A stretch of DNA of 64,000 bases from Symbiodinium sp. CCMP2592 (Eukaryota; Sar; Dinophyceae; Suessiales; Symbiodiniaceae): the NCBI GenBank assembly GCA_905221615.1, contig CAJNDT010002024.1, positions 735,357 to 799,356 of the forward strand, read 5' to 3'. The notes below the pieces were generated by a model. It saw only the letters and a program-made list of their open reading frames with translations, searched no databases and was not told the origin of the DNA. Positions 4,401-63,997 of this stretch are shown here, in pieces; position 1 is the first letter of the stretch, and each line of letters opens with the position of its first letter. The position numbers and the translations under genes are program-made.

Positions 4401-5765
4401 CTCGGTCCTTATTGAGGGGTTTACGGTTTAGGGTTGAGGTGAATGTGCTATGGGGGGGCGATATTCACAAGGGAGCTGCACAGTCTACGTGCTTAGTCTT
4501 GTTGTCATTGTGTGGTGTGACATTCAGTTGAAGTAGCAGGCAACTATCACAACTGTGGCACTCCTAAACCCTATTGCAAACCCCCAAACCCTAAACCCCA
4601 AAGCTGGAGTGCTTACTGTAGGGCGTCTTGAGACTCCTGGAGTTCGCAGACCAAGCCGTACACCATGTCCTGCAACCAGGCTTTGGGACAATTTAGCGAC
4701 AATGGGACGTAAGAACTATAGGGCTAGAAATGAGGTACCTGTACGTAGAAGTACGTATCACCCTGACTAAGATACTTATATTATAGCCTTACTAAGTCCT
4801 CTGATCCTCCAAGTGGGGAGGTCCCCTGAACAGTTAAACAAGGCCTGTAGGGCGTGCTGCGCTGTAATTTTCCGACGTAACTTTTCAGGAAGGGTATGAC
4901 TACTTGTTCATGCTTCTGTTTTACCCCTGCATGGCCGCAACGAGAACCGCTAGTTCCCGTGTGCTTAATACAGGGGCTTTAAGATTTACCAATACTACTT
5001 TGGAGACTCCTTATTGTATCACTGATTAATGTATAGTATAATATACGCCCAAAACACTATTCTGATTATTAAGGCCCTGCATTACTCGTGAAGCCGAGGC
5101 AAACACCATATACGGCTTTGATGCCTTGCAGGCGATGCCCTCTGGTGTAGAGCGGGACATGCGACGACGCTTCGGTTCAGAAAGAACACTCAACATGGCG
5201 AAAGTAATTAAGAGTGAGAAACAGATAATCACAGCCAACAGCAATAGTATGGGCTGTGTTAACAGTGGGATTCAACGAGCAGCGAATAGGCAGACACCAG
5301 TGAAATTAAGCGGGCACCAGTGCGGAGTATTAGTTGGGGCCAAGGAACATTGTGGCTGTGGAACCCAACTGTGCACGTCTCGGGGCTCTGAGATGAACCG
5401 TAAAGCCCAAATCCAAGTTGAAACGTGGAGAGCCTGGTGGCGACTGGGTGGACCTGTTCTTGTAGAGTCATGTCTTTCAACCCGCAGCCTTACCGCCAAA
5501 CCGTGAACCATACACTCTAAACTGAGATCTGCACGATGAATCTGAACCCCGAAAACCCTAACCCTGTTTTTCGAACAGGTTTTCGATCACATCCTCTTTG
5601 AGCAGGCGGACCCTCAGGGTTTGTTTGTTCAGGGTCTGTATTATTATAGCCACGCAGCTTAGGGCTTCGAGCCTAAGGTTTGCTTTGCCCTAAGAACTAC
5701 ACTCTAAACCCCAAACCCTACAAGCCACATCCCAAACCGTAGGACCTAGACGCCAGCGAGAAAGA

Positions 5766-39238: not shown

Positions 39239-39451
39239 TACTTCAAGGATCATGGGACTTGGAAACTAGGGTTATGACTTACAGTAATCCCCATAAAGTT
39301 GGAAACCGGATTAAGGCCAAATCGTGCTGGGATTCCTTACACATTACTCTTAAGGACTGAGGCTATGGGGTTTCCAACTTTTGGGCTTCTACTGTACTCT
39401 ACTTATAGCTACTTAAACCCCACTTAATAGGGTAGCCTGATCCTCCAAGCA
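39239..39451. repeat. Family B element interrupted by a family D element
   Basis: TACTTCAAGGATCATGGGAC opens and CTGATCCTCCAAGCAGA closes the family B copy. A complete family D hairpin (39280-39396) sits in its left interior. Confidence 0.75.
39280..39396. repeat. Inverted-repeat element, family D (nested)
   Basis: TACAGTAATCCCCATAAAGT and TTGGAAAC face GTTTCCAACTTTTGGGCTTC with TACTGTA. The interior has GGGATTCCTTACACATTACT. Confidence 0.8.
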
Positions 39452-43064: not shown

Positions 43065-43365
43065 TCTGGAGGGGTGCTTGCGCATCAAAGCTTATCCTGC
43101 AACGCGGACAGTGGACGCCGCCTGCCGCGAAAGCCGCCCAAGTTCAAGGAAGGTGGTGTTAACAAAGCACTGTCGGACAAGATACTCGAAACACTGCTAT
43201 GTCGTATCATAAAGATCAGCCCATCGTAGTGTTGTATAATACGCCCCATGCGTTGCTGAGCCTTTGGCTCGACATTTCCCTGAGGGTCCGAGTGCTCAAA
43301 TGTTGCCACCTTGTCTTAACTTGTGCCCAGAAAGGAATTGTCCTCCAGGATGGTTTCGTGCTTTT

Positions 43366-43412: not shown

Positions 43413-44550
43413 GTATTAATACTTATATAATAACATGGACATATATATATAGCTAGGTACATGCATGCTGGATATCGCACACATGAATAATTGGTCATGC
43501 TGCTTGTTCTTTCTCCGGGCCGATGCGATTTTGGGTTGATCTAGTTCGATTAGTTTCATGGGACACACCCCGGCAGAAAGCCTTGAATTCAATTCCCTTA
43601 TTATGCGATCCAGACCCCTGAACTCAACAATTAAACCCCGGCAGAAAGCCCTGAATTCAATAAACCCCATGCCCTTAAGCTATCCTGACCCCTCAACTGA
43701 AGAAACCCAGAGCGCTTAATTTAGGAGCTTGGGTGAAATCTATAAACATATGCCCTGAACTCAACAAACCCAGAACCCTTGACACCACATTAGACCAGAA
43801 CCACTGCTAACCAGTCTAGATAAACCACACCATTAATTGGTAATTAGTGCAATGCTGCGGGCATCCCTTCGCTTTCAGAAGCGGCATGGGAACTCGAAAG
43901 GTGCTCCCACCGTGCCGCCACTGTGTGTTCGGGGGGTCGTGCGATCGCGAAGCTGTGATGTGTCGATTGTCGAATTTGGTCGCAGCTTCGAAGCAATGCA
44001 GTGTGAGCTTGATGAGAGCTGTCATGTGGCATGCTTAGCAAAGCACTTTGCAAGCGGTACATATATATGCTACTCCCTACCTTCGACTATGCAAAACATT
44101 TCGTCACAGTCCCTTTTCGCATTTGTCCTCGACTACCTCTTCTAGCTACCTGGTGTGTGGTCAGCCATGGCTGGTGGGATTCAGCGGCAATTCAGTCAGC
44201 CGATGAAATATTTCCTGACGGATCCTAGCTGCATGTGGCTACATCTGTGCTATGCAAAATCATGTTGCAAAGTGTGTGTAGCTGTACATGGGTACATCTC
44301 TGACAAAGCAAAGGAAGGGGCCGAGATCGTGGCGAAGGGTGTCCGACCATATATGGACCAAATTATGGAGAGCCTGAGGGCCACGGAAGCACCTCGGCCC
44401 TGATCATGCACACTTAGCTGCAATATGCATCTAATCCGACACAGCTTCCTGCCGAGGCAAAGCAGCTGACCCGCGAATCTGAGGATGATAAGCATGGGAG
44501 CAGCAAGGTGAGATCCCGTGTGTAGGTGTGCGGGGATCCTCGAGTGGTGA

Positions 44551-45558
44551 TTGAATTCTAGTCTGCTGGCCGAGGTGTCTGATGCGGATTTCATTGCAAA
44601 TTACGATTTGATGAAGATCTTCATTGCCAACAGCATCACTCCGGAACTCGGGATTCCGGTGCTGAAAGACTTTAGAGTGTCTCGTCATTCTCGTTACGGC
44701 CCTTGTAGCTTTCAGGTATGGGAACATGTTAGATTCATCCAAGGTGGCACTGATCCATCTATCATGTGTCCACGGCCTGCACCCAGAAGTTCGCAAACGA
44801 GGGGGCAAACAGGTGGTCAAGGACGTGTGCTCGCCGCATGTTCGTAATTCGTGTGCTACGACTATCTATGCTTGATCTGGTATGCTTGTCCAGGACTGGG
44901 CTTTCGGTGAAGCTGGACGGCTCAGAGGGCTTTTGTCGGCCCTCTCAAGGGTCACTCTCAGGACTCTGAATGCTAAGATTTTCGGTTGCAAGTTTAGTTA
45001 CTATGGTCAGCTGTATTCATTCATATTGCATGTGTTCGTTTCCTTCCGCATGATCCTATATTCGATTCCAAGGTCGAAGAAAACAGCAGTGCTGAAAAAA
45101 ATGTTCGCCATCAAAATGCAGTGGGTGACGGAGGATGGAGATTGGATCCCCGGTATCGTTGCTTGCATGCATATACAGCTTATTATAGATGCAATTTTGC
45201 GAACATTAATCCCAATCGAGGTCTGCAAAGCTTGTCGGGTCCGTAGTTTGTTCATATATACTAGGTATAGCAGTAGCTGGTGATTGGATTTTGCTAGCTT
45301 CGAAGCTCCCCGAAAGCTTTCTCTTTTCGACTATCGCACTTGGCATCTGAGGTCGACGATGCCCCCGCCGATGAGCCTGATCAGGGATCCGGAGAGCCGG
45401 CCGACGACAGCGATCACGATGATGATGATAGCGGGGGTTCTGCATGTTCTGCTTCAAGGGGCGATGACAAGCTTGTTCCCCGAAGCCTAGAGGCTGCCAC
45501 TAGTCTTATACTTAAGCTGCATGTATGGCTGCAGAAACATGTCCCAGTCACCGTCTAG
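44551..45558 (+). CDS. Candidate upstream exons of the acidic/basic repeat-protein gene
   Basis: Several protein-like segments lie here in different frames. They include SLLAEVSDADFIANYDLMKI to GPCSFQ (44554-44715, followed by GTATGG), then HLSCVHGLHPEVRKRGGKQ (from 44744, followed by GTGGTC), DWAFGEAGRLRGLLSALS (from ~44893) and the acidic VDDAPADEPDQGSGEPADD to KLVPRSLE (from ~45352). Acceptor-like AG dinucleotides precede each. Their order and strand fit exons of the gene continuing at 45811, but phases were not fully resolved and a start codon was not fixed. An isolated terminal-looking segment, KAKEGAEIVAKGVRPYMDQ, ends at a TGA at 44401-44403 and may belong to another gene. Confidence 0.35.
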
Positions 45559-45810
45559 TTTGAGTTCGTTCAAATTCAGAACATGTTAACAGAATCCAAC
45601 ATACCGACTTGCAAGGACTTGGATCGCGAGATGCACCGGCTCTTATCCACTCAGTCCCTCAGCAAGGATGGAGACGATCTTCGGGGTTGTGCCAGCCCCA
45701 TTGTTACTAGGCATTATTATTGCATTTGGCTTCATTGACCAATGCATGTTCATGGCCATGGTCATCGTGGTGGTATATACCTAGCTAGCTGACATAGCTG
45801 GTGATCTCAG

Positions 45811-47739
45811 GATCTGCCGCCCGACTTGATGTCTGCCCTGGAGATGGAGATCGACGACGATGGACAATTTGCAGGGCCCGATGTGCCTAGATTAATTTTA
45901 ACATCGTTTGCAGTACCCAGTCTGAATCCGAATTTGCATATCTGCAGTGGCACAAGCTAGCTAGAGCCGTACCCTACGTATACCAAGGATGTGCCACATC
46001 CCTCGGATGTTCTGACGGCAAAGGAAATGGAGGAATTCGAGGCGCAGATCTCTATCCCGGCCAAACCCCAAGCCCCGAAACCAAAAGTAGGCCCAGGCAC
46101 CCGCTAGTTGGACAATGCCACCAGGACGAACTTCGCGATGCCCACGCTGCCAAGAAGAGCAAGGAACCGAAGGCGACCTGCAAGCAAGCTTGCTGGGGTT
46201 AAACCCGAGCATTTCAACCGTCAAGCCCGAACCCGAACACTGGTCCTAAACCCTAAACCTTTAACCTTAAGCTCTAAACCCCGGGCACCCTAGAACTTTC
46301 AATCCCTAAGCTCTAACACCGGGCTTAAACCCTAAACCTTGAACCTTAAGCTCTAAACCCCGGGGCTTACACCCTAGAACTTCTAAACCCTAACTCTAAC
46401 ACCTGGCTTAAACCCACCCTAAACCTTAACTTTAAAATCCCAAAACCCGAACACTGGGCTTAAACCCTTAACCTTCAACCTTAAACCCCCAGCCCTATAT
46501 GACTTAAACCCCAAGCCGCCTGATTATAAACCATTCAGGACCGGAAACCTCTGGTGCCAACTACGGCGGATCTTCCAGATGAGCTTAAGGACCTTCTTAA
46601 TATGGATGGGTTCAATGAAAGCGAGGAGGTCGAAGCAAACTCCACCCTCTTGAAGCAAAGGGAGATCAAGGCAGCAGAGGCAAAGAAGGCCCGATTAACA
46701 TAATTGCTACATATATAGAGCAGAGTACTGCTAGCTAGCGATTGTTCATCACAGTCTGTGCAGGCAGCTGCTCCAAAGTCAAAGGGCGGCAAGGGTGGCG
46801 GCAAGCTGAGGCGAAAGCTGTCAGTGCTTGAAGAGAAGGACCCCGTGGCTACGCCACCGGCAGCTGTAAGGGAGGCCCCAGGGAGTGATCCCCTTCAGAA
46901 GAAGCCTCGAGGAGCACGGGGTAAGGGGAAAGGCAAGGGCCGTGGGGCCCACAAGAAGGGTGAGCAGCACGAGGACAACAAGCCAGAGGAGTCCGCAGAC
47001 AAGGGTGAGCAGCACGAGGACGAGAAGCCAGAGGAGTCCGCAGACAAGGGTGAGCAGCACGACGAGGACGAGCCACAGGAGTCAGCAGACAAGGGTGAGC
47101 AGCAGGACGAGGACAAGCCAGAGGAGTCCGAAGACAAGGGTGAGCAGCAGGAGGACAAGCCAGAGGAGTCAGCAGACAAGGGTCAGCGGAGGGGACGTCG
47201 CAAGAAGCTGACTCCTGCACAGGAGGCAGCTAGTATCAAGTCCCAGGCCCTCGCAGACAAGAACCTGGCAATCGTGAGGTCCTTGTCCGTGAAGCACCCG
47301 GAGTTGCAACCACAGGTGGGATTTTCCGGTAAGACACTAGGCTACATAGTGAGCGACCACGACAGTTTATGTTGCAACCTGCGAAGATCGTGCTCGTCTT
47401 GCGAGTGGAAAACTCAACCTATCTAAGGAGCTATACTGTTTGGCCACCTCGTGGCGAAGTGGACAACCCCGAGATCAATCCAATCACAGTTGCTTTGTAC
47501 ACCGGGTGCTACTATGTGCAGCGATGTGTCAAGAAAAGCGATGCCAATGTTCGTGGTGCATCTCGACTTATAAATAGACATGATCAAATCATGATGTAAT
47601 TATCCGTACGATTAAAATAACCTATGATCATGATAGTATAGTTGCCTCCCAGGTGAACGTGGACACGAAGAAGGGAGGCTCCACGGTGTCCTGGTTGAAG
47701 CACAGAGGTGCCTCCAGGGCGCCACTGGACAGCAAGTGA
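45811..47739 (+). CDS. Intron-rich gene for an acidic/basic low-complexity repeat protein (3' part)
   Basis: A hand model of six exons joins without a stop: 45811-45882, 45961-46086, 46125-46172, 46539-46688, 46764-47315 and 47653-47739, all with phase-0 junctions. Donors are GT, GT, GC, GC, GT; acceptors are all AG. The 366-bp third intron is full of CCCTAAA heptamers. The protein begins with acidic segments (SALEMEIDDDGQF), then PYPTYTKDVPHPSDVLTAKE, LPDELKDLLNMDGFNESEEV, a Lys/Gly-rich basic stretch, and five repeats of about 15 residues with the core KGEQ-DE-KPEES-AD. It ends with KKLTPAQEAASIKSQALADK and STVSWLKHRGASR. The mix suggests a nuclear, disordered protein, but function is unknown to me. 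The 5' part is probably in 44551-45558. Confidence 0.55.
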
Positions 47740-50700
47740 GAAATGTTCAATAGATGCACATGTCTTGGGAAATAGATCTAGAGTAACCAGCTTCTGAAAC
47801 CAAGATGGCTGTTGGCTACCTTCCTGGCCGGGTGGCTTGGAGATGTGGACCCGCTGGACAGAAGAGGATCATGATGATGCTTGGTTGCATTTTGCTTGTT
47901 TCTAGTCGAGCCAGTGTGTGTCTGAACCCCAGACAACAAGCCTGAACCCAAATAGGCTTTGCTAAGTAATAAGTAATTAGAAATTTATGGTTTTCCTTAA
48001 AATGGGTTGGGTCATAATAATAGATAGTACGATCTATTATTATAATAATGTTAGAGGGAGGAAAGCAAAGCCTGGAATCAGTACGTATACCATACCGTGC
48101 ACAGTCTGGTTCAGGGCGCCGGCACTTATTTGTTAGTTGGGGAAATCCAATCTCAAGTCCCGTGCCACACCCATGCACGGTGTCACCGGATGGGTGCATG
48201 CCCCACTTTCGGGATTAGGGTTCTTTGTGCTATAATAAGATATATTCCTGACAATGACCCGTCATAACATAATTTTTAACCACTTATCTAGATCTACTTA
48301 GCCACAGTGGTTCTCTTTATTTCGGAGTCCAGGGTGCAAGAATCCATATGTCATATCAGGCCAGGCCAAGCTGTGCTCGTCAACAAACTTTCGGATCGAA
48401 GTTGCCTTCAGGGGCCTAACGCTCGGTTTAGGGCTTTAGGGTTTAATCGATTAAAGGAATATGGGGTATTAGGGGTCATACTGTTTAGGGGTCCGCTAAC
48501 CTGCAGGTCATTTTATTTAAATTATCCCACCCAGCCCTTTTGTTTCCCATGCCCCTCGTCGCCACTCCATGACCAGGCTGCTCCAAGCAAGAGGAGAAGG
48601 ACAAAATGAACGGCTCCAAGATCCTGACATGCGAAGCTTCGTACATTTTTGGGGTTGCCGGCATCTAGGGAAGCTGATGTGCTGGGCAGTGCGGGTCGTA
48701 AACTTATAGGTGTCGGGGCCAGCATAAATAATGGCTTGCTACAGTCGACGGAGACTCCACGAACTCACGTACACAGTAGAACTGCCTTCGTAACACATTG
48801 GCTGCCGGTACCCAGGATGTTGATGTTTCAACATCTACCTAGATGATCCAGATCTCGATGAAGCTGCCAGTTTAACCGCTTCTTAGGCTTGGGTTCACCA
48901 TGCAATAGTACCCTGTTTCTAGACCGAGCTTTCCCTGGAACAGATAAATATTCCCCATAATAGCGATCATAGGCTAGGTCTTCTTGGGTGAACAACTGTA
49001 TACACTTACGCATACATATTTGGGCTAGTATATAATATTTATACATACCTGATGCCTGACACAGTGGTGGCAGTAATTTGAAACATATGCAGCATTGGAA
49101 ATTCAATGCAGCCCCTAGCATGATCCGTGCGATCGCAACAATCCCGGCAAGTGGATGAAGCAACAGCTCCCGCAAGTGGATCAGAAACACACTGCGGGAA
49201 TTCTGGTGTTATTCGAGCTTCTGATGTGCTTGGGTGTTGTTGTCCGGCCACTGCAAAGACAAAACTCGATGGCTCAAAGTCTTGAAGATTTGCTGTGAAA
49301 CATCGTAGTTGTACTGCAGCAGCCTGTAATAGTGACAACAACAGTTCTAGGTTCTGGTCTGCTGTTGGGTCGGGGCCCGGGTCTTTAGGTTGGAGCTAAG
49401 TCTTCGCACACGGGTTGCAGGCCAGGGTTCACGCTGACCATGTCTGCCAACCCAGATGGGCAGAAACTCGAAGGGTCAACCAGGCCTCACGGTCTGCTAG
49501 TGTGTTGTGTGTGTGTGTGTTCGTGTACTGCTCGTCGGCTTCAGCAATAGTTGATTTGGTTTTAATTTCCTCAGTTCTTTCAAGCGAGGTATAATTACCA
49601 CATGCCTACAGTTCATTAAGCGGATTACTTTTTCAGTCAGGCTTGTTCAGGAATCGGTAGTGCTGCAGCAGTTGCAATTGAAGGGGTGGCTATAGAAGGA
49701 CAGCACGATTTATAAAGTTACCAGGCCAGGGCTCAAGGAAACTGTTGTGCTGGTCGTCGGTGACGAGGAATAGCGAAGATGATGATGATGATGATGGTTG
49801 TGATGATGAAGATTTTGACGACGGTGATGCGAGATGATTTAATCATGCTGCAACATAAGGTCGTGATGACGGCGATGCTGATGCAACATGAGGATGATGA
49901 TGATTGGTGCAGCCGGCTAGACATCTGTAGAATGTCAAATGACTTGATAGCACCTAACCTTGACTTAGTCCCTGGGCGATGTAGATATGCAATGCATTAT
50001 AAGTATTAACTGCGGTTGCACGGTTCCCTAATCCGTACCAGCCGGGAAGCCTTCACGCCCTCCTACCCCACAAGTCCGTCCTAAAGCCCTAAACCCAAAC
50101 ATCCCGAAAACCTGAAGCCCTAACTAAATTAATTCGCCAAAGACCTGAAGCCTTCAAGGCTTACTTCCTATGTGACCTGTATACATCTACAATTTTTATG
50201 CCAAATATGATTGAATGTGCTCTACTGTAAACGATCCGAAGAATAATGATACAGCCCCAACCGTCAGAGAAGTACGCAGCCCCAACCACCGAATACTGAA
50301 AAGACCAGGATCAGAGGGACGATGAAGATCTGCCCCATGGAGTCGCCAGACTCGCGATCGATCTATGTGTGCCTTGGTTCGTTAACTGGCTTATATGTTG
50401 AGATTATGACTTTCTTGTTGTTGCCTATTGCATTGGGTTTTTGGGGATCGGACTACAGACTTGCCTACTAACCACGTATACGGTACAGCAGTACAGTCAT
50501 GGTACTAGTGGCTCTTTCGTGAGCATCGATGAGCATTGTTCTGCCCCAGCACGACTGCACCGTCTTGAGGGTTTATGGTTCAAAAGCCAACCCCAGACTG
50601 ACCTCCGGCTTCAACAAGTCAATCATCCGGTTCGCTAAGTAAAACCCACAACCCTAATAAACCGACCACTCTAGGGCAAAAGAAATCAAACCCAAATAGC

Positions 50701-51850
50701 CCCACCGTCTCGGTAGTGAAGTCGTGCCTGCTAGCGGCCCCAAATCCTTAACCGTATCACCGGCAATGAACAATTCAGTGATCCTGATCGTAGCCTCCTA
50801 GGATCCAATATACTGACCTAGCAAGCCGAGCCCACAGGTTACGTGGACACATGCTCGAATCCAAGGCCGGGCTTAGTATAGCGGTTTAGATTTTAAAGGC
50901 TTTGGGACCAAAGTAGGAGTTAGGCTAGGGGTGTTATTATATAATTATTAAGATTACCAACCCAAAGGGCCCAAAGTACGTTTCTGGTAGAATATGTAGG
51001 GCTCCTGTACTCAGATGAATTAGGGGAAGTATCCCCGCCCCCATATAACAGTACTTTGGACCCTTTGGGCAATAAGGCTGCTGTGTAGGCTTTGGCTTGG
51101 GGACTAAGCTTTAGGGTTGTTAAATTTCTCGGTCGGATTTCAGTCAGGTGTAAGTACCCATATATACTATTAATTTGGGATGCTGGTGTCTCGATTTTCG
51201 TTGTTTAGTTAGGAGAGGCAAGTTTCGGCCAGGGAAGATGTGTTGGCTTGTCAGGGTTCCAGGTTTGATAGAATCGAACCTTGTAGCATGGCCATAGTTA
51301 GTCGATCTATAAAGAATCCTTTCGAATATTCTAGGCTTGCAAGGGTCTCAGCTGCATTAATTGCAGATATTGGAGCCCAAGGCCTTAAACCCGAAACCCT
51401 CCACCCTAAACCGTAAGGACCACAGAGTTTTCGATTATTATGGGATGTGCTAGTTTGGTGTATGCCTAGGGTGTTGAAACGTGCTGTGGTTTGCTTCCAC
51501 AGTTATTTAATATATAGCAATTCGAATAATTATAATAATTATAATTAAATTATAATTTAAGATATTGGCACATACTGGTGAGAATAGGAACTGGGCTGGC
51601 CATAGGGGTCAGATTTTTTTTTAGTTTAGTTTCCGCGGAATTAAGGTTTCGGGTACGTAGATCTAGGATCTAGGCTGGCAACTATAATTGATAGGTAGTT
51701 AGAGGTGAGCAATTAGTCGGTAGGTAGCTATATTGTTCCGGTCACTAGCTAGTGCTTGTAGAAACATGGGAAATCTTATTTTGGCCGAATATGTGGGTAG
51801 GTGTAGCGAGGGTCTGTAGTAGGTAGGTCTGTTCGTTGGCTGGATACCTT
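47740..51850. other. Intergenic or unresolved stretch
   Basis: Few telomere-like heptamers. One terminal-exon-like segment (AAPSKRRRTK then stop, about 48573-48609) follows an AG. Around 49040-49345 both strands are open (+ strand with LPQVDQKHTAGILVLFELL, - strand with QDFEPSSFVFAVAGQQHPST), so the coding strand cannot be chosen. A CAT/GAT-rich run lies at 49740-49900 and AT-rich DNA at 51500-51560. A fold-back with ACCCAAAGGGCCCAAAGTAC arms occupies about 50943-51075. Confidence 0.4.
50943..51075. repeat. Inverted-repeat element, family E-related (long)
   Basis: ACCCAAAGGGCCCAAAGTAC faces CAGTACTTTGGACCCTTTGG. Similar arms bound 53267-53383 and, more diverged, about 61033-61137. Confidence 0.7.
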
Positions 51851-52159: not shown

Positions 52160-53680
52160 ATCCATGCATCTAGTCGATCATGCTGCTCTAAACCCGGGCT
52201 GCACATTAGCTTCGTGACCAAAACTGTATGCAAAAGACACTAGGACTCTTAAGCATGCTGGAACCCAGCAGTTTCCATAAGCCCTGTAGCTTCAACCGCG
52301 GTCCATAGGCCCTGTAGCTTTTATAGCTTTATTTACACCGGCTAATTGTATACGATGTACAATTATGAATGCTGAGTCCCTGCTAACACCCAGCCCCACA
52401 GCTGAAGCCCTTAGCTCTTCTTCTTTTAAGTGCCAAGCCCAGAACGACGAAACCCTAGCACAATGCTCCGATCAAACCCAACAGCTAGAAATTAAGCTTC
52501 AAACCTCTTGGATCTAAGCAGATATAATATATCCAGTTTCCATGATCATGTCGGTCGACTCTACGATATAGTGATAGCTTATGATCATATTATAATTAGC
52601 TCTCGATCTAAACATCAGTCAACCCTATAAACTTGGAAACCGGCTTAAGGCCAAACGGAGCTGCGATTCCCTAGGCCTTATTACTCTTGGGGATTGAAGC
52701 TATTCGGTTTCCTTGTTGTTTTTGGGCTTTATACGTATACACTAGCGAATCTGTTTTACTCTAGATTTTATGCAACTATAATAATAAGCTTAAGCTATGC
52801 ACCCTCAGCTAACTCTATATATTATCCCATCCCTAGTGTCGACTAATGTTGAGGCGAAGTAAGGGTGGTCCGAAACCTTTGAAACCCGAAACATACCTGA
52901 AACTTATAACTGCCCAGTACCCCTTCTGCAGGTGGCAACATAGTTGCCGGCTCCGCCAGATTATCCCAGGTGTGCCGGTGCCAGGTGGTGCCAAGCTGCA
53001 ATTACCTGCAATTGATATCAGTTGAGGATAAAGTTAACTTGCACGCTAGCCCGAGGGTCTAGTGCTGATGTGAAGTTATCAGCAGCCAAGGTTCCGAAGA
53101 TGACTGGTTGTGATGCTGTTTGAGTGAGGCTCAGCTAGTAGAGCTACCGAGTGCATTCTCGTATGTTCCACCCGAAGCCCGCACGAAGCCCTCGATTCTG
53201 AGTTTGTTTGGGGCACTCGATAGTTGGTTTACGTTTATTTAGGGTACCGGGTATAGGGAATATAATATATTATTACCCAAAGGGTCCAAGTAGTAGTATA
53301 TATATATATATATATAGGATATACTTTGGGGCCCAAAATACTTCCTACGTAGCTACTATAATGGTACTTGGACCCTTTGGGTTAAGCTAGCTTCTATATA
53401 CGGGTCTGGTAATTCTGATGTGAACTGCTTGAATTTCCGTGGGGAGGCAGATCTGGCTTCCAGCTAGAGACCACATATGCGAAAATGGGGTGTGCTTTGC
53501 TGTACGCCTGCTTAAGCACACACACCGGATCGTGTTTGCCTGTGCCTGTGTGCCATCGGGTCCTTGTTATGGTGTCTTCCCGAGCATGTAGCTGTAGTTT
53601 CAATGCACTACCCCGTTGTAAGCTAATGTGCTAGGTACTCTATAGAGTACTTTCCCAGAAAGGGTTTTGGGATAAGGACA
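52160..53680. other. Intergenic stretch with fold-back elements
   Basis: A diverged family D copy at 52623-52733, an element at 53267-53383 and AT-rich DNA. No gene was recognised. Confidence 0.5.
53267..53383. repeat. Inverted-repeat element, family E-related with (TA)n
   Basis: ACCCAAAGGGTCCAAGTA faces TACTTGGACCCTTTGGGT exactly (18 bp). The interior holds a (TA)n run and TTTGGGGCCCAAAA. Confidence 0.8.
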
Positions 53681-53686
53681 CATATA

Positions 53687-53813
53687 GGGCGTAACTGGGC
53701 GTAAATTGGCGTAACTTTGCCGTAACTTTATATCCCCAAAGACCCTACCCGGAAAGGCTTTTCAGCATATAGGCCCGACTCCCCGTAACTCCGGCGTAAC
53801 TTTCCGTAACCCC
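53687..53813. repeat. Clustered GCGTAACTT-type decamers
   Basis: Seven copies of (G/C)CGTAACT(T) occur within ~125 bases in two clusters. GGAAAGG...TTTTCC-type motifs flank and separate them. They lie about 110 bases upstream of the ATG at 53919, so a promoter-proximal regulatory role is possible but unproven. Confidence 0.6.
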
Positions 53814-53918
53814 TTGAAATCAATACCGCCTGCCCTTTCTGCTGGAACCCTTCAGGGAAAGGTTTTTCCGAAAGGCCAGAGTGCTCTGGCTTCCTGGTAG
53901 TTTAGAGCGGATATAGTC

Positions 53919-54584
53919 ATGCCGAGCCTAAGCAAAAGTGCTCGCACAGAGCCCTATCCTGCTGTGAAGAAGCAACCTTCGAAACCGGCGAGGGTGTCTT
54001 GGATGTAATTATTGATTATGCCTTCGAAATTCAAGCTTGCAAGTACACATCGCCACCCTGGTTCATATACTCGAATCAATCTTCTGCCCAGGCTCCGTCC
54101 AGATCCTTGTCTGGAGCGGACCTCAGTGTGGACAAGGAGGTCGCAGCAGCTTTGGGGGCAGGCAATGGCAGCTTCATTGCGGTTCTAAATTAAATAAATA
54201 GAGTATGGTATGTAGATTATCGGTGATCTAGCATAGGTTTAAACAATTCCAATTTGCTACCCCTACCTATTCTTTATCTATGTACTTATATAGTACCGCC
54301 AATTATAAAGATGTGCGGGTACCCTGCTAGGCAAGACAACAGTTCGCTATCGGGCAACGACTCCTACTCCAGCAAGGGCACCTGGAACAATACCCCAGGC
54401 TGCCGGGCCAAGGGCAGCACCCGAAGTGCTCGCGACTGGTACCCCAATCAAGAGCCCGCCTATGAAGAAAACCAGGGGACACTCGATTCCTGTACGGAAG
54501 GATAGTGGGGTGTCAGTGGCAAGTTCGAAGTCTGGGAAGCCTCCTCGCCCGGGCTCTTCTACGAAAGGATGCCTGCCTGCTTAA
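53919..54584 (+). CDS. Small basic protein gene with introns
   Basis: Exon 1 (53919-53993) starts at ATG with MPSLSKSARTEPYPAVKKQP and ends AGG/GTGTCT. Exon 2 (from 54092) reads APSRSLSGADLSVDKEVAAA and could end at 54162 (GC donor) or 54181 (GT donor). The last exon, from about 54331, starts KTTVRYRATTPTPARAPG and ends STKGCLPA with TAA at 54582-54584. The GC donor gives a phase-consistent join. The product, ~130 residues, is Lys/Arg/Ser/Pro-rich and probably disordered, perhaps nuclear. It has the same strand as the gene starting 480 bases downstream and could be its 5' part. No homologue recognised. Confidence 0.4.
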
Positions 54585-54628
54585 GCTTCTAAGTGTTCCT
54601 AGTTTCCCTTTTATAAGTTTATTAGTCG

Positions 54629-54707
54629 AGCGAATACATCTGATCTGATCTGATCTAGTGATCAAATATATTATAATAATAGTATTATCTAGATAATATA
54701 TATATAT

Positions 54708-54744
<37 letters not shown>

Positions 54745-54778
54745 ATCACTAGATCAGATCAGATCAGATGTATTCGCT
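54629..54778. repeat. 150-bp fold-back with ~44-bp arms and AT-rich loop
   Basis: AGCGAATACATCTGATCTGA and the following TCTGATCTAGTGATCAAATA are exactly complemented at the right end, which closes with CAGATGTATTCGCT. The loop is (TA)n-rich. It starts 45 bases after the stop at 54582-54584, so it may lie in a 3' untranslated region. Confidence 0.9.
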
Positions 54779-55066
54779 ACAGTACTGCAAGCTTAAGCTT
54801 AAGTACTGTACACTAGCTAGTGTATATCGATGTAGATGTAGCTCGATCGTAACTAGATATACATGTACATGCATGTATAAGACTGAAGTTGATCTGCATG
54901 CAACTCTATTTCGATTTATAGTGTGCTTATATCTAGCTATACATACGTGTACCATGCAAATGGAGCTATAGTTTACGTATACATACTAATAATATAAATA
55001 ATGAATAACATGTATACATGCATGCACTGTACACAGGCATGTACTTGCGATTAAGGAGTGAAGCAC

Positions 55067-60172
<5,106 letters not shown>

Positions 60173-60840
60173 GTGACGTGGGCCACTCCTCAAGGGTTTT
60201 GTTCCGAAGCTGAGTGTGTGTGAGCTATCACATGCATCTAGATATGTGTCCCTCACCTCATTGGTCATGTGGCCGACGGCTATAGCATGATGTTGCATCT
60301 TCGCGAATTTAGGGTCTAGTTTGCATATTGCTGCCATGGGTCATCTAGAACTAAATATGCCAGTTCGGACGATACGGTGGGTGAAACTTGAAGCTAGCTC
60401 GCAAATCATTCTAGTCGTCGGTGAGTGGCCTTAGTACTGATGTGAGAGTTGCACATGTACATGCAAAATTATGTGGGTTCCAACTCGGGACATCCGAGAC
60501 AGGTGAGGATTCATGAGATCCTTAGCCTGTCATGTGAGACATGTGGGCAGCCACCTTCCGCTGGGTGTGGGAATCCTGCACTCGATCCCGGCATGTTCTC
60601 AACGAGAAAAATTAAACGGACCGTGCCATGGCATCGTGCACATAAAGCATGCATGTTATCATGGAAGAGCATGTCCGACGCAGGCACAGCTCATGATGGT
60701 AATCGCTTCGGCCGTGGATGTCTAAGCCAATGCCTACACTCGATGATCACATCAGGGGACTGCCATGTTGCAGTTGCAAGCCGACTACACATGATTCTTT
60801 TCGTGCAATAGATGATTGATGTATCTCGAATGAGCAGCAG
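60173..60840. other. Unresolved stretch between the two family gene halves
   Basis: A Cys-bearing open segment (SCETCGQPPSAGCGNPAL, about 60529-60582) and an open frame to 60811 are present, but no phase-consistent exon joining 60169 to 60841 was found by eye. Confidence 0.4.
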
Positions 60841-63800
60841 GAGATCAGCTATTCTTCCGCACAGCGGGTGGCTCACGCTGCAGTGGAGGACTGCAATGAG
60901 CTAAGGTACGATACCCGCGACTGCACTACCCTATGTAGTTGAACCTCTATCCCGTAAACCCTCAACATAAAACAACAAATCCTGGTTCCTAGTATGTCGC
61001 CTTATAATGATGGTATTCTCTGAGTTTGCAGTACTACCCCTAAGGGTCCAAGTACCTATAAGTATGCTATATACTCTCCCAAATAGTAACCTACATAACT
61101 ATATTATCCTAAAACCTAGTTTGGGCCCTTAGGACCCTATACCCTATTAAACCTTCGATGCCGGCAGGTTGCGAGCCCTAAATATTTCCCACCCACTCCA
61201 GCACCAGGACTACGATCACCACGACATCTGGCCTGACAGATCGCTGGCTGCTATGGCTAATGCTGGAGCAGAGGGCCGACACACGTCCAACATAGAGAGG
61301 GATGTCTTGAGAAACGAAGCCCCCTGCCAGGCCGGGCTCCAACTTGTTGATTCTAGCTTTCTAGGCAACAGTGTTGGCTTGTGTATGTTAAGTTTGTGCT
61401 TCCCCTGCTGTTCAGGTGCCCATACGAGCTGTTGTGGTGCCTGTCCGAACACGGGTCAAAGGTGTCTGGAAGGTGGAGCAAAGGATCCTTGACCACATTA
61501 ATTTTTATTGCAAAGGGATTTCGTAACGATTCTGAAATGATAATTATTATGTCCTTAAGCTTGCTACCTCTAGCTATAGGTGTCGGGCCCACTGCAACCT
61601 TCAGGGAAATGCCGGTGGTTTTGCCGCACGACATATTGAATGCTTTAGATTCATGTGGGCGGCTACGGCAACTATTCAGCGACAACGATCTTGATCACTA
61701 TTGGGATAACTTCAAGCAGCACGAGAGCTCTGTTGTGCAGTGGCCTGCAGAGGCCGAGCGGGGCATGATTCCAATCGGAATCCATGGGGATGACTTCCGG
61801 TACACCGAGCACGGCCAAAAGCTGATCTTGGTATCGATGAATATATCAGTGGATAACGAGATGCAGGACCGCTTCCCGATGTTTGCTGTTCGTGTTGCTG
61901 CTAGGCTTGACTGCTATTCTACATGCCCTAACCTTCAAGTTGAATTAGTGTCATGCTAGATGCAGCTGCACACTCACAAACCATCCTGGGGTGCCACAGC
62001 AAATCGTTGAGAGCTGAGGCTTTGAGCACGGGATTCCCGACGCTGCAAGCCTTCATGAGACCCGCCTCCAGACGCAAAGTTGGGCATGCCTACCTTACTA
62101 TGTTATACTATATTTTTGCAACTATGTCTAATATATATTTAGGCCGTAGGGAACAAGTTTGCAAGCAACTGAGATCGCTGCATCTTTCAATTACTGCTAT
62201 TTGGGAGTGGCTCCTATGTACCTGGACCCGAACAACATGATCCCGGAAGAGGTGGAGAGGTCAGCCGCTGATGTGATGGGTGAAAAAATTATGTTCCCCC
62301 GAGCTTACTTTTCGGAGTGCCGGGCGGATTGGAAGTTCATGAAGGACATCGGGGACATGTGATTGGAGTTTCGTACATGCACACTGATACTTTCAAGCTT
62401 CGGATGTAGGAGCTGCTATGCCTGGGTGCAGCCTGGAACTGCAAGCAGTTGTGTCACATGTGCCAAGCCAAAGACAACGACTACCTCAAGTTTCCTTCGC
62501 AACTACCGTTCCTTCCTCGACGAGGGTGGCAGGACTTCAAGTCAATCTGCAAACCCTACCAGGGCTTCCGAAGCTCCTTGTCTTCATGCATGTACACAAT
62601 CATGATCGCAAAAAAATGTTTACGGAATCGATCTTCAGCTTCATCCTGAGGCCATGTGCTGAGCATCAGGGGCTTTCATCATTCTGCACTTCGATGGTGC
62701 AGCATGCACAGCATAAATCTTGGCATATGCCACTGGGTGGTGGGATCGGTGATGCTCATGCTTTTGAAGAACGAGGACACTCGGGATTCATGTGCACACA
62801 CCTACAAAGCTAAACACGTGTGTACTGTTCAATTTCAATTGCTGCAGGACATCTGGCCGGCACCCGCCGGCACGCTTGCGAAGGAAAGGACGAACGTCAG
62901 ACTGAACATCGCACACTCGGAGTTCATGGAATGGACTCGGGCGAACAAGATCGAGCAACATGCTGCACAATATGTGTACATGTGTGCACAGCAGCAGATC
63001 ATGGCCTGCTAGGTGGCCTGCACATGTGTAGTTATCAAAAATAGCCAGGCACTCGCAGCCCGAATTTCACGCACGAAACCTTCGAGATTCTGTATCGGGC
63101 TATGCAGAGATGAGCATGAAGGCTCACAATGCCCCTTGGTTTGCATTAGGTTTCGACTTCGGCGCCTACATGTGCAATTTGTGCCACATACCATGTTGTG
63201 ACTTTAGGCTCGTGTCGTGACTGGATGGTTATGCCATCTACTGCTGAAGCTGTGCGACTCCCACGATTTTCGCTCGGACCGAGAGTTGTCTGAAATGGTG
63301 AAGACCGTGCAACATCGCTGCAAACAGATCGTTTATGGTTTGGAGCAGGGCTACGTTTTTTCAGGCCCTATACACCCTAACCCTGTAATTTGATGATCAG
63401 GTATTGGCTCAATGAGTTTTTCAACCGGATGGAAAAAAACGGGCGCTTTTTGAGCCCAAGTGGCAAAGCTGAGCTCGAGGAGGCATGCGAATCTTGGCAA
63501 AGGTTTTTTTGTTTTTAATGCTGTGCAGTGTGCACACATCAAACACGAACGTATGCTCAGGACAAATGCTGCATCAGCTATGCTGCACTTGCGACAATGG
63601 CAGCCCAAAGATCCGACCGATTGTGGCCACTGCGACCCAAGTTCCACGTGGCTTTCTGGCACTATCGATCATGTTAAGCATAGCATGGGTTGCAGCTCTA
63701 TTGCAGTATGTTGATCTGAGGCGTTTCAAGAAATTGTTTTCATGGCCATGATGGATGGCACCACGGCGGCACATATGAAAACTTATACAATGAATTCCAA

Positions 63801-63997
63801 CGCCTCAAAGTGCTATTTGCCAAGGTCAGAACCCGAAATATGGGCATACATTTAGAGATGAGGGGTACATGGGTGCGGCAAAAGGCAGGATGATGAAAGA
63901 ATCATGTCATCGGATCATGGCTGCATCGTTTGATCCACCCTTGCCCCCTGTGCGACAGCCATTGCTCGACGATGCCATCGAGCAACTCTGGAAATGA
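60841..63997 (+). CDS. 14-exon gene model, C-terminal half of a dinoflagellate multicopy protein family
   Basis: Exons: 60841-60905, 61240-61330, 61416-61516, 61605-61893, 62150-62353, 62410-62579, 62670-62775, 62848-62973, 63059-63130, 63208-63326, 63401-63502, 63578-63647, 63721-63824, 63856-63997. Phases agree at every junction and no stop occurs before TGA at 63995; total 1761 nt. Donors: GT, GC, GA, GT, GA, GT, GA, GT, GC, GA, GT, GT, GT. Motifs in order: NAGAEGRHTSNIERDVL, VVLPHDILNAL, IPIGIHGDDFRYTEHG (~61768), YFSECRADWKFM, LCHMCQAKD (C-x2-C), WCSMHSINLGICHWV (~62695), MEWTRANKIEQH, AHN/ARVVTGWL, LRPKFH (~63630) and PRDEGYMG. I recognise this order from unannotated proteins repeated in Symbiodiniaceae genomes. 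The D-rich GDD, Cys pair and MH-NLG blocks recall CACTA/Plavaka-type DDE transposases; that is speculation. A start at ATG 61253 or an upstream exon are both possible. Confidence 0.7.

Follow-up and report, generated by a model that had tools for sequence, protein, structure and literature searches.

The 64,000-nucleotide stretch analysed here (the window; contig C2024:735357–799356 of Symbiodinium sp. CCMP2592) carries near its right-hand edge a multi-exon gene, gene D, which is the right-end gene of a four-gene mobile unit occupying window positions 43278–64366. A preliminary description, made from the letters of the window alone, had picked out gene D at 60841–63997 as an intact-looking, intron-bearing member of a multicopy family with transposase-like landmarks; the element that contains it extends 17.5 kb leftward from 60841. 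The features that delimit it are listed below, in window coordinates.

43278–64000, plus strand: mobile element, very probably a giant DNA transposon, delimited by alignment with copies on contigs C557 and C5107; right end at 64366, 366 bases past the window; total 21,089 bp
43275–43277, no strand: left target site duplication, TTT; right copy just past 64366
43278–43293, plus strand: left terminal inverted repeat, CCCTGAGGGTCCGAGT; its imperfect right-end partner, on the other strand, is CCCAGAGGCTCCTAAG

The genome searched comprises 1,098,105,373 bases on 5,383 contigs, and the homolog searches took in this one dinoflagellate genome, the host of the window. The dinoflagellate spliced-leader 21-mer has 429 exact matches in the whole genome (217 + 212), against none for the reversed control, and the host is therefore taken to be a dinoflagellate.

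Copies and ends of the mobile unit

DNA comparison shows that the window element recurs on C557 at 1141269–1162463, in two aligned pieces of 98.5% identity over 15,840 columns and 99.5% over 5,470 columns. The alignment begins at 43278 and stops at 64366, with visibly unrelated flanks on both sides, and no further alignment of more than 400 bases was found between the compared stretches of the two contigs. The shared block opens with CCCTGAGGGTCCGAGT and closes with ...GGAGCCTCTGGG. A 21-kb block that is 98.5–99.5% identical on C2024 and C557 between unrelated flanks has moved recently. The copy on C5107 is 21,610 bp long and collinear with the window element from first to last base, its aligned blocks being 72–93% identical.

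The ends of the family are short, imperfect inverted repeats, CCCTGAGGGTCC... on the left and CCCAGAGG[G/C]TCC... on the right. The preliminary description had proposed a search for terminal repeats around copies, and the same ends were found at both extremities of the copies on C2024, C557, C5107 and C5045. All four copies with both ends read are flanked by 3-bp duplications (TTT on C2024, ACG on C557, TAC on C5107 and ATA on C5045). Four right ends, on C1, C2146 (twice) and C5045, are nearly identical, reading ...CCTTTGGACCCTCTGGG; they belong to a subfamily whose E4 exon of gene D shows 59% protein identity, and their flanks are dissimilar, apart from those of the tandem pair on C2146. On C5045 the left end lies 23.6 kb from the right end, with ATA on either side. 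Right ends of the same kind are present on C1469/C3101 and C3001 (42% identical in E4), and C1112 has a candidate right end, ...GGACCCTCAGGG, that lies farther off and is unconfirmed. For the C1 copy the left end was not in the region read, where genes B and C belonging to a duplicated part were found instead. Inside or across element copies, sequence is duplicated in tandem on C1 (about 14.8 kb, approximately 367000–394545) and on C2146 (about 17.2 kb, approximately 517000–545600). The elements of this family are 21–24 kb in size, and their status as a mobile unit is well established.

The flanks of the C557 copy encode a repeated unit that, as a reading of its pattern, resembles a leucine-rich repeat. 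When the element is removed and one ACG kept, the joined flanks, ...EAIGEALKCNFTLTSIDLNNNSIG^VEGGKARWASERSVLL..., match the neighbouring unit EAIGEALKTNSTLTEISLLGNRIGDEGVKARWASERSVLL. The host repeat unit is restored, and this empty-site test is therefore consistent with insertion. Joining the flanks of the window copy in the same way gave no recognisable gene and was uninformative.

Exon structure and copies of gene D

Comparison of copies resolves gene D into 15 blocks, and those that carry conserved residues are listed together with a probable further exon.

60841–63997, plus strand: gene D exon blocks E1–E15, putative transposase
60698–60766, plus strand, ends approximate: probable extra 5' exon E0, with modest support
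61605–61902, plus strand: exon E4, first invariant Asp (GDD)
62171–62344, plus strand: exon E6, second invariant Asp (ExRxDWK)
62410–62580, plus strand: exon E7, invariant CxxC
62651–62775, plus strand: exon E8, invariant CxxH (WCxMHxxNLG)
63811–63997, plus strand, 5' end uncertain: last exon E15, RDE, with the stop codon at 63995–63997

The coding blocks of the preliminary description are present in the window where it placed them, and above chance, but its count of fourteen exons has to be revised to 15 from 60841 to 63997, with E0 probably upstream. E0 has protein matches at E values of 0.045 (C1469), 0.011 (C1112) and 0.003 (C3001), and a DNA match at 1e-5 in C1469. Because of this further upstream exon, 60841 appears to follow a 3' splice site (cag/GAG) and not to be the start of the gene. 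With regard to the proposed in-phase joins, a script found in-frame GT/GC/GA...AG solutions for 13 of the 14 E1–E15 junctions, those at E12–E13 and E13–E14 only after the exon cores had been trimmed, whereas E14–E15 gave only poor GA-donor joins; since several junctions had many possible joins, these are weak evidence alone. The D blocks compared between the window and C5107 contain no stops over 576 codons.

All 15 blocks were recovered from C5107, where the sequence between blocks is mostly unrelated to that of the window. They were also matched in position order in C1, C1469, C280, C1112 and C3001 (E8 only partly in C3001), with one weak second E8 match out of order in C280 (E 0.047), and with E6 and E7 run together in C1112 and C3001. 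Seven copies, including that of the window, accordingly hold all 15 blocks, ordered wherever coordinates were listed, and in a seven-row alignment of the joined blocks the other six are 47–79% identical to the window protein. That the family is multicopy is borne out by at least 91 matches to exon E4 in the genome, a lower bound from a search in which 150 of 210 candidates were scored. No relatives of E4 were found in a viral contig collection or among prokaryote genome contigs, as expected for a dinoflagellate family. Remote relatives at five loci (L040, L041, L042, L044 and L045) are 29–38% identical in E4, and L042 has E4–E7 in one open frame. Gene D is, as had been supposed, both intron-bearing and mobile, having 15 blocks within a 21-kb element that has moved; the idea that it might be domesticated is not supported for the window copy, because it sits inside a recently moved element.

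Three further genes in the unit

Stop-to-stop frames of the window element and the C5107 copy gave 46 best blocks, 36 on the plus strand and 10 on the minus strand. Most of the plus-strand blocks fall into four groups, gene D (60698–63997) and three genes to its left.

43837–47865, plus strand, ends approximate: gene A, multi-exon, from blocks against C5107 and C5045, with a Lys/Glu-rich repetitive stretch at about 46845–47339
53913–58518, plus strand, ends uncertain: gene B, multi-exon, with an open frame of about 530 codons containing short tandem repeats; homolog in C1
59409–60172, plus strand, start uncertain: gene C, small, with a Lys-rich tail at its end

Identity to C5107 is 78% for D, 77% for A, 68% for B and 66% for C. 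The corresponding dN/dS values are 0.19 for A (388 codons), 0.28 for B (541 codons), 0.26 for C (113 codons) and 0.20 for D (576 codons), all biased low because the compared blocks were picked for conservation. Taken together, these sequence comparisons show that all four genes are conserved and point to constraint on them. On C5045, homologs of gene A sit beside the left end of the element, and C1 has homologs of B and C. Searched against the genome, codons 1–218 of the gene B frame from 55058 returned 23 matches; two of these (C1, C4940) are additional copies, each on a contig where a B–D pair is also present. When the lists were compared by eye, B lay on the same strand 5.7–7.4 kb upstream of D in all 21 of the strongest E4 matches (at least 40% identity). 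Joined pieces of A–C gave only Pfam matches below the cut-off (Caldesmon 0.16; oligo_HPY 0.057; PUF 0.18).

Three other observations concern this part of the element. The gene B match at C4445:797036–797347 (minus strand) lies inside an open frame of 3,611 codons, in which the internal repeats may have expanded greatly. A perfect 108-bp palindrome with 54-bp arms is located at 59133–59240, upstream of gene C, and a telomere-like TTTAGGG array lies between B and C at about 58663–58740, with similar CCCTAA runs in introns of the C5107 copy.

Gene D as the candidate transposase

The block order of gene D had been likened to a DDE-type transposase core, and the order D...D...CxxC...CxxH...E indeed agrees with that of DDE-type transposases that carry an insertion domain. 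Invariant residues were scored, in profile numbering, over 12 members, five of them remote and incomplete, leaving out rows without the column in question. D147 of the GDD block is conserved in 12 of 12; E247 and D251 of ExRxDWK, C272/C275 (CxxC) and C328/H331 (CxxH) each in 11 of 11; E472 (the E of RME) and H516 in 10 of 10; and D547/E548 (RDE) in 9 of 9. Three invariant acidic residues, D147, D251 and either E472 or E548, therefore occur in order and are predicted to have catalytic roles. Among the blocks named in the preliminary description, GDD (its first D), CxxC, RPKxH and RDE are conserved and MHSINLG is largely so (LHTLNLG in C1112).

We consider it highly probable that window 43278–64366 is a copy of a giant four-gene DNA transposon, with gene D most likely its DDE-type transposase; as judged from its sequence features, D is the likely catalyst of the unit. 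Its protein, presumably of RNase H-like fold, would bind the element at its CCC...GGG ends, excise it and insert it, in a cut-and-paste reaction, into a target whose two strands are cut 3 bp apart, and genes A–C may encode accessory proteins, like the second open reading frames of CACTA elements. No description of the element was found by title or abstract start in the literature searched, a search that had most subscription journals outside its scope and did not query protein motifs, and within it the family appears undescribed. Multicopy genes of no known function abound in the large genomes of dinoflagellates. If D is a transposase, one of these families can be identified as a transposon enzyme, and three more (A, B and C) as its partners. 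Activity is directly testable, because the ends are exact, the duplication is 3 bp and near-identical copies exist.

A number of points weigh against this reading, besides the bias of the dN/dS values. The TAC duplication at C5107 is weak because the left flank is a CATACATAC run, and the C5045 element was read at its ends only. The 10 minus-strand blocks among the 46 include some that overlap plus-strand exons and a few, near 51797 and 53648–53898 in the interval separating A from B, that do not. Gene C has one stop in the compared C5107 frame, and no B was detected, at the sensitivity used, beside the weaker E4 matches, which make up 70 of the 91. Furthermore, none of the seven D members matched any Pfam family at an E value of 10, and six pieces of remote members gave only sub-cut-off matches to unrelated families (E 0.04 and 0.13). 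Searches of the PDB with D returned nothing by profile and three thrombin-type chance matches by single sequence (E 0.55–0.79). Comparison of the D profile with a validated CACTA transposase by hhalign, the kind of check that the preliminary description had called for, was not significant, since 14 of 100 shuffles scored as high, although the test is weak because the template was a single sequence and the family profile had 12 rows. An AlphaFold2 model of exon E4 alone was poor (predicted local distance difference test score 49) and uninformative on the fold.

Relationship to known transposons and other explanations

The element could be a true CACTA/EnSpm (CMC) member that has diverged past sequence recognition. 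CACTA elements make a 3-bp duplication, have a DDD/E triad and carry an intron-bearing transposase beside further open reading frames (PMC4158355), and a soybean CACTA element of 20.5 kb is close in size to the unit described here (PMC2613891). The unit shares with them the 3-bp duplication, short inverted repeats, a CxxC after the second Asp, non-autonomous derivatives and a large size, which CACTA elements can reach. The order D...D...CxxC...MHxxN...E of Tnp2 also speaks for membership, as does the fact that hhalign placed its best local match on an LL...RL stretch closely following the MH motif.

However, the ends are CCCTGAGG.../...CCTCTGGG, that is CCC...GGG, and neither CACTA...TAGTG nor CA...TG. 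None of the seven D members matched Transposase_21 (PF02992); a genome-wide search for the PF02992 family was silent, but so were its controls. There are four conserved genes here, and gene D has 15–16 exons compared with one to six in 64 plant CACTA transposases and up to eleven in maize studies (PMC4158355). The CMCT clade has C(2)C between the second D and E, H(3-4)H, a target site duplication of 2–5 bp and, in most cases, CA...TG termini (PMC12730594). Gene D has the C(2)C (C272/C275, 11 of 11) and the unit has a duplication within that range (3 bp), but no H(3-4)H pair is present among the conserved columns, CxxH (C328/H331) being in its place, and the CA...TG termini are absent. CACTA membership was rejected as unsupported, the Pfam (conceptual protein, seven members and remote pieces), PDB and hhalign searches all being negative, and we regard a diverged CMC member as unlikely. 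Gene D would thus act like a transposase of the CMCT kind without being filed in CACTA or CMCT, and the elements look like an undescribed giant DNA transposon family that is CACTA-like in behaviour but fails the CACTA sequence tests.

Plavaka, ESTA, Lanisha and KDZ elements are likewise DNA transposons able to carry genes beside the transposase, but Plavaka ends are TGT...ACA or CATCA...TGATG, unlike CCC...GGG here, and ESTA duplicates TA, Zisupton 8 bp and Kyakuja 7 bp, compared with 3 bp here (PMC12730594). Gene D is further set apart from all of these by its lack of a match to any Pfam family.

It is also conceivable that the unit is a transposon whose catalyst is supplied by one of A, B and C, with D as an accessory. 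Neither fold nor homology testing marks D as a transposase, and A, B and C are under constraint as well. Yet D is among the best conserved of the four in the comparison with C5107, it often occurs without detectable B (the 70 matches above), it has the D-D-CxxC-CxxH-E order, and B is repeat-rich while C is small and Lys-rich. We therefore think an accessory role for D quite improbable.

An integrated virus or polinton-like element would account for a multi-gene unit of 21–24 kb with terminal repeats; protist genomes harbour polintons and polinton-like viruses, described as 14–40 kb long, which likewise combine several genes with terminal inverted repeats. Their hallmark is the presence of capsid, polymerase or integrase genes. 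No viral gene was recognised here, with no Pfam match above the cut-off for the pieces of A–D searched (the 48–53.6 kb middle was outside that search), and exon E4 has no relative in the viral contig collection. The terminal repeats are short and imperfect, the duplications are 3 bp and the genes are intron-dense, which makes this explanation very remote. Near-identical copies could also stem from ordinary segmental duplication affecting a multigene region of the host, or from haplotypes left uncollapsed, and tandem duplications do exist on C1 and C2146, but such an origin is barely credible given the unrelated flanks and the interrupted host repeat at C557, and it is contradicted by diverged copies that share termini with 3-bp duplications.

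Short elements with similar ends

Two short elements lie within the giant element, one of them a miniature inverted-repeat transposable element (MITE) and the other MITE-like.

53276–53381, no strand: 106-bp MITE nested in the element, ends CCCAAAGGGTCCAAGTA, target site duplication TTA
61038–61133, no strand: MITE-like element within intron E1–E2 of gene D; none seen in the corresponding C5107 intron

The copy in the gene D intron has ends like CCCTAAGGGTCCAAGTACC, and that at 53276–53381, flanked by TTA/TTA, has CCCAAAGGGTCC. Five MITE loci were read of 41 matches, two of them the same insertion in duplicate; three of the four distinct MITEs have matching triplets (TAC, CCA and CTC). The 18-mer end CCCWAAGGGTCCAAGTAC occurs 1,862 times exactly (922 + 940), compared with none for the reversed control, a figure that counts ends and not elements. 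Read from the tip inward, the right end of the C1 subfamily opens CCCAGAGGGTCCAAAGG and that of the MITE opens CCCTAAGGGTCCAAAGG. This likeness of ends supports the proposal that the MITEs were moved by the same transposase as the giant elements or by a sister of it; short non-autonomous MITEs with similar ends and 3-bp duplications would then be moved in trans. Two findings count against the proposal, namely the mismatched TTA/TAA triplets of the fourth MITE (L007) and the lack of a clear CCC-based duplication around that in the gene D intron.

Dinoflagellate introners are, like the MITEs here, short, with inverted repeats and short duplications (PMC9860276, PMC7789003), and one MITE lies in an intron. 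They differ in that the introners of S. microadriaticum are reported to have 4-bp duplications (PMC9860276), against 3 bp here, and in that no MITE here was seen as a whole intron. For the one MITE examined in this respect, that in the gene D intron, the introner reading was set aside, the intron position being common to C5107, where the MITE is absent, and MITE copies having duplications of 3 bp and not the published 4 bp. The published search for introner mobilisers paired ends within 10,000 bp, also took in RepeatModeler repeats, and compared open reading frames with known transposases (PMC9860276); because of that pairing distance and comparison, a 21–24-kb element with an unrecognised transposase could escape it. 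Only speculatively, and with little expectation that it will hold, we raise the idea that D genes form a new DDE superfamily, so far of this genome only, whose giant four-gene elements power the many CCC...GGG MITEs, including copies that have become introns. If true, new introns would arise from a source which the published search could have missed.

The window outside the element

No block of genes A–D was found in window positions 1–43277, where the search for element genes gave a single weak match, of 29 aa, near 39300 (E 6e-6). Termini resembling CCCTGAGGGTCC are present on the minus strand at 5619 and 29149, with no element gene beside either, and the sequence at 5619, which goes on as GCCTGCTCAAA, closely resembles the element's left end. 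Between 28001 and 36000, two 4-kb bins have raised GC (0.58–0.59) and a strong AT skew (0.19 and 0.32).

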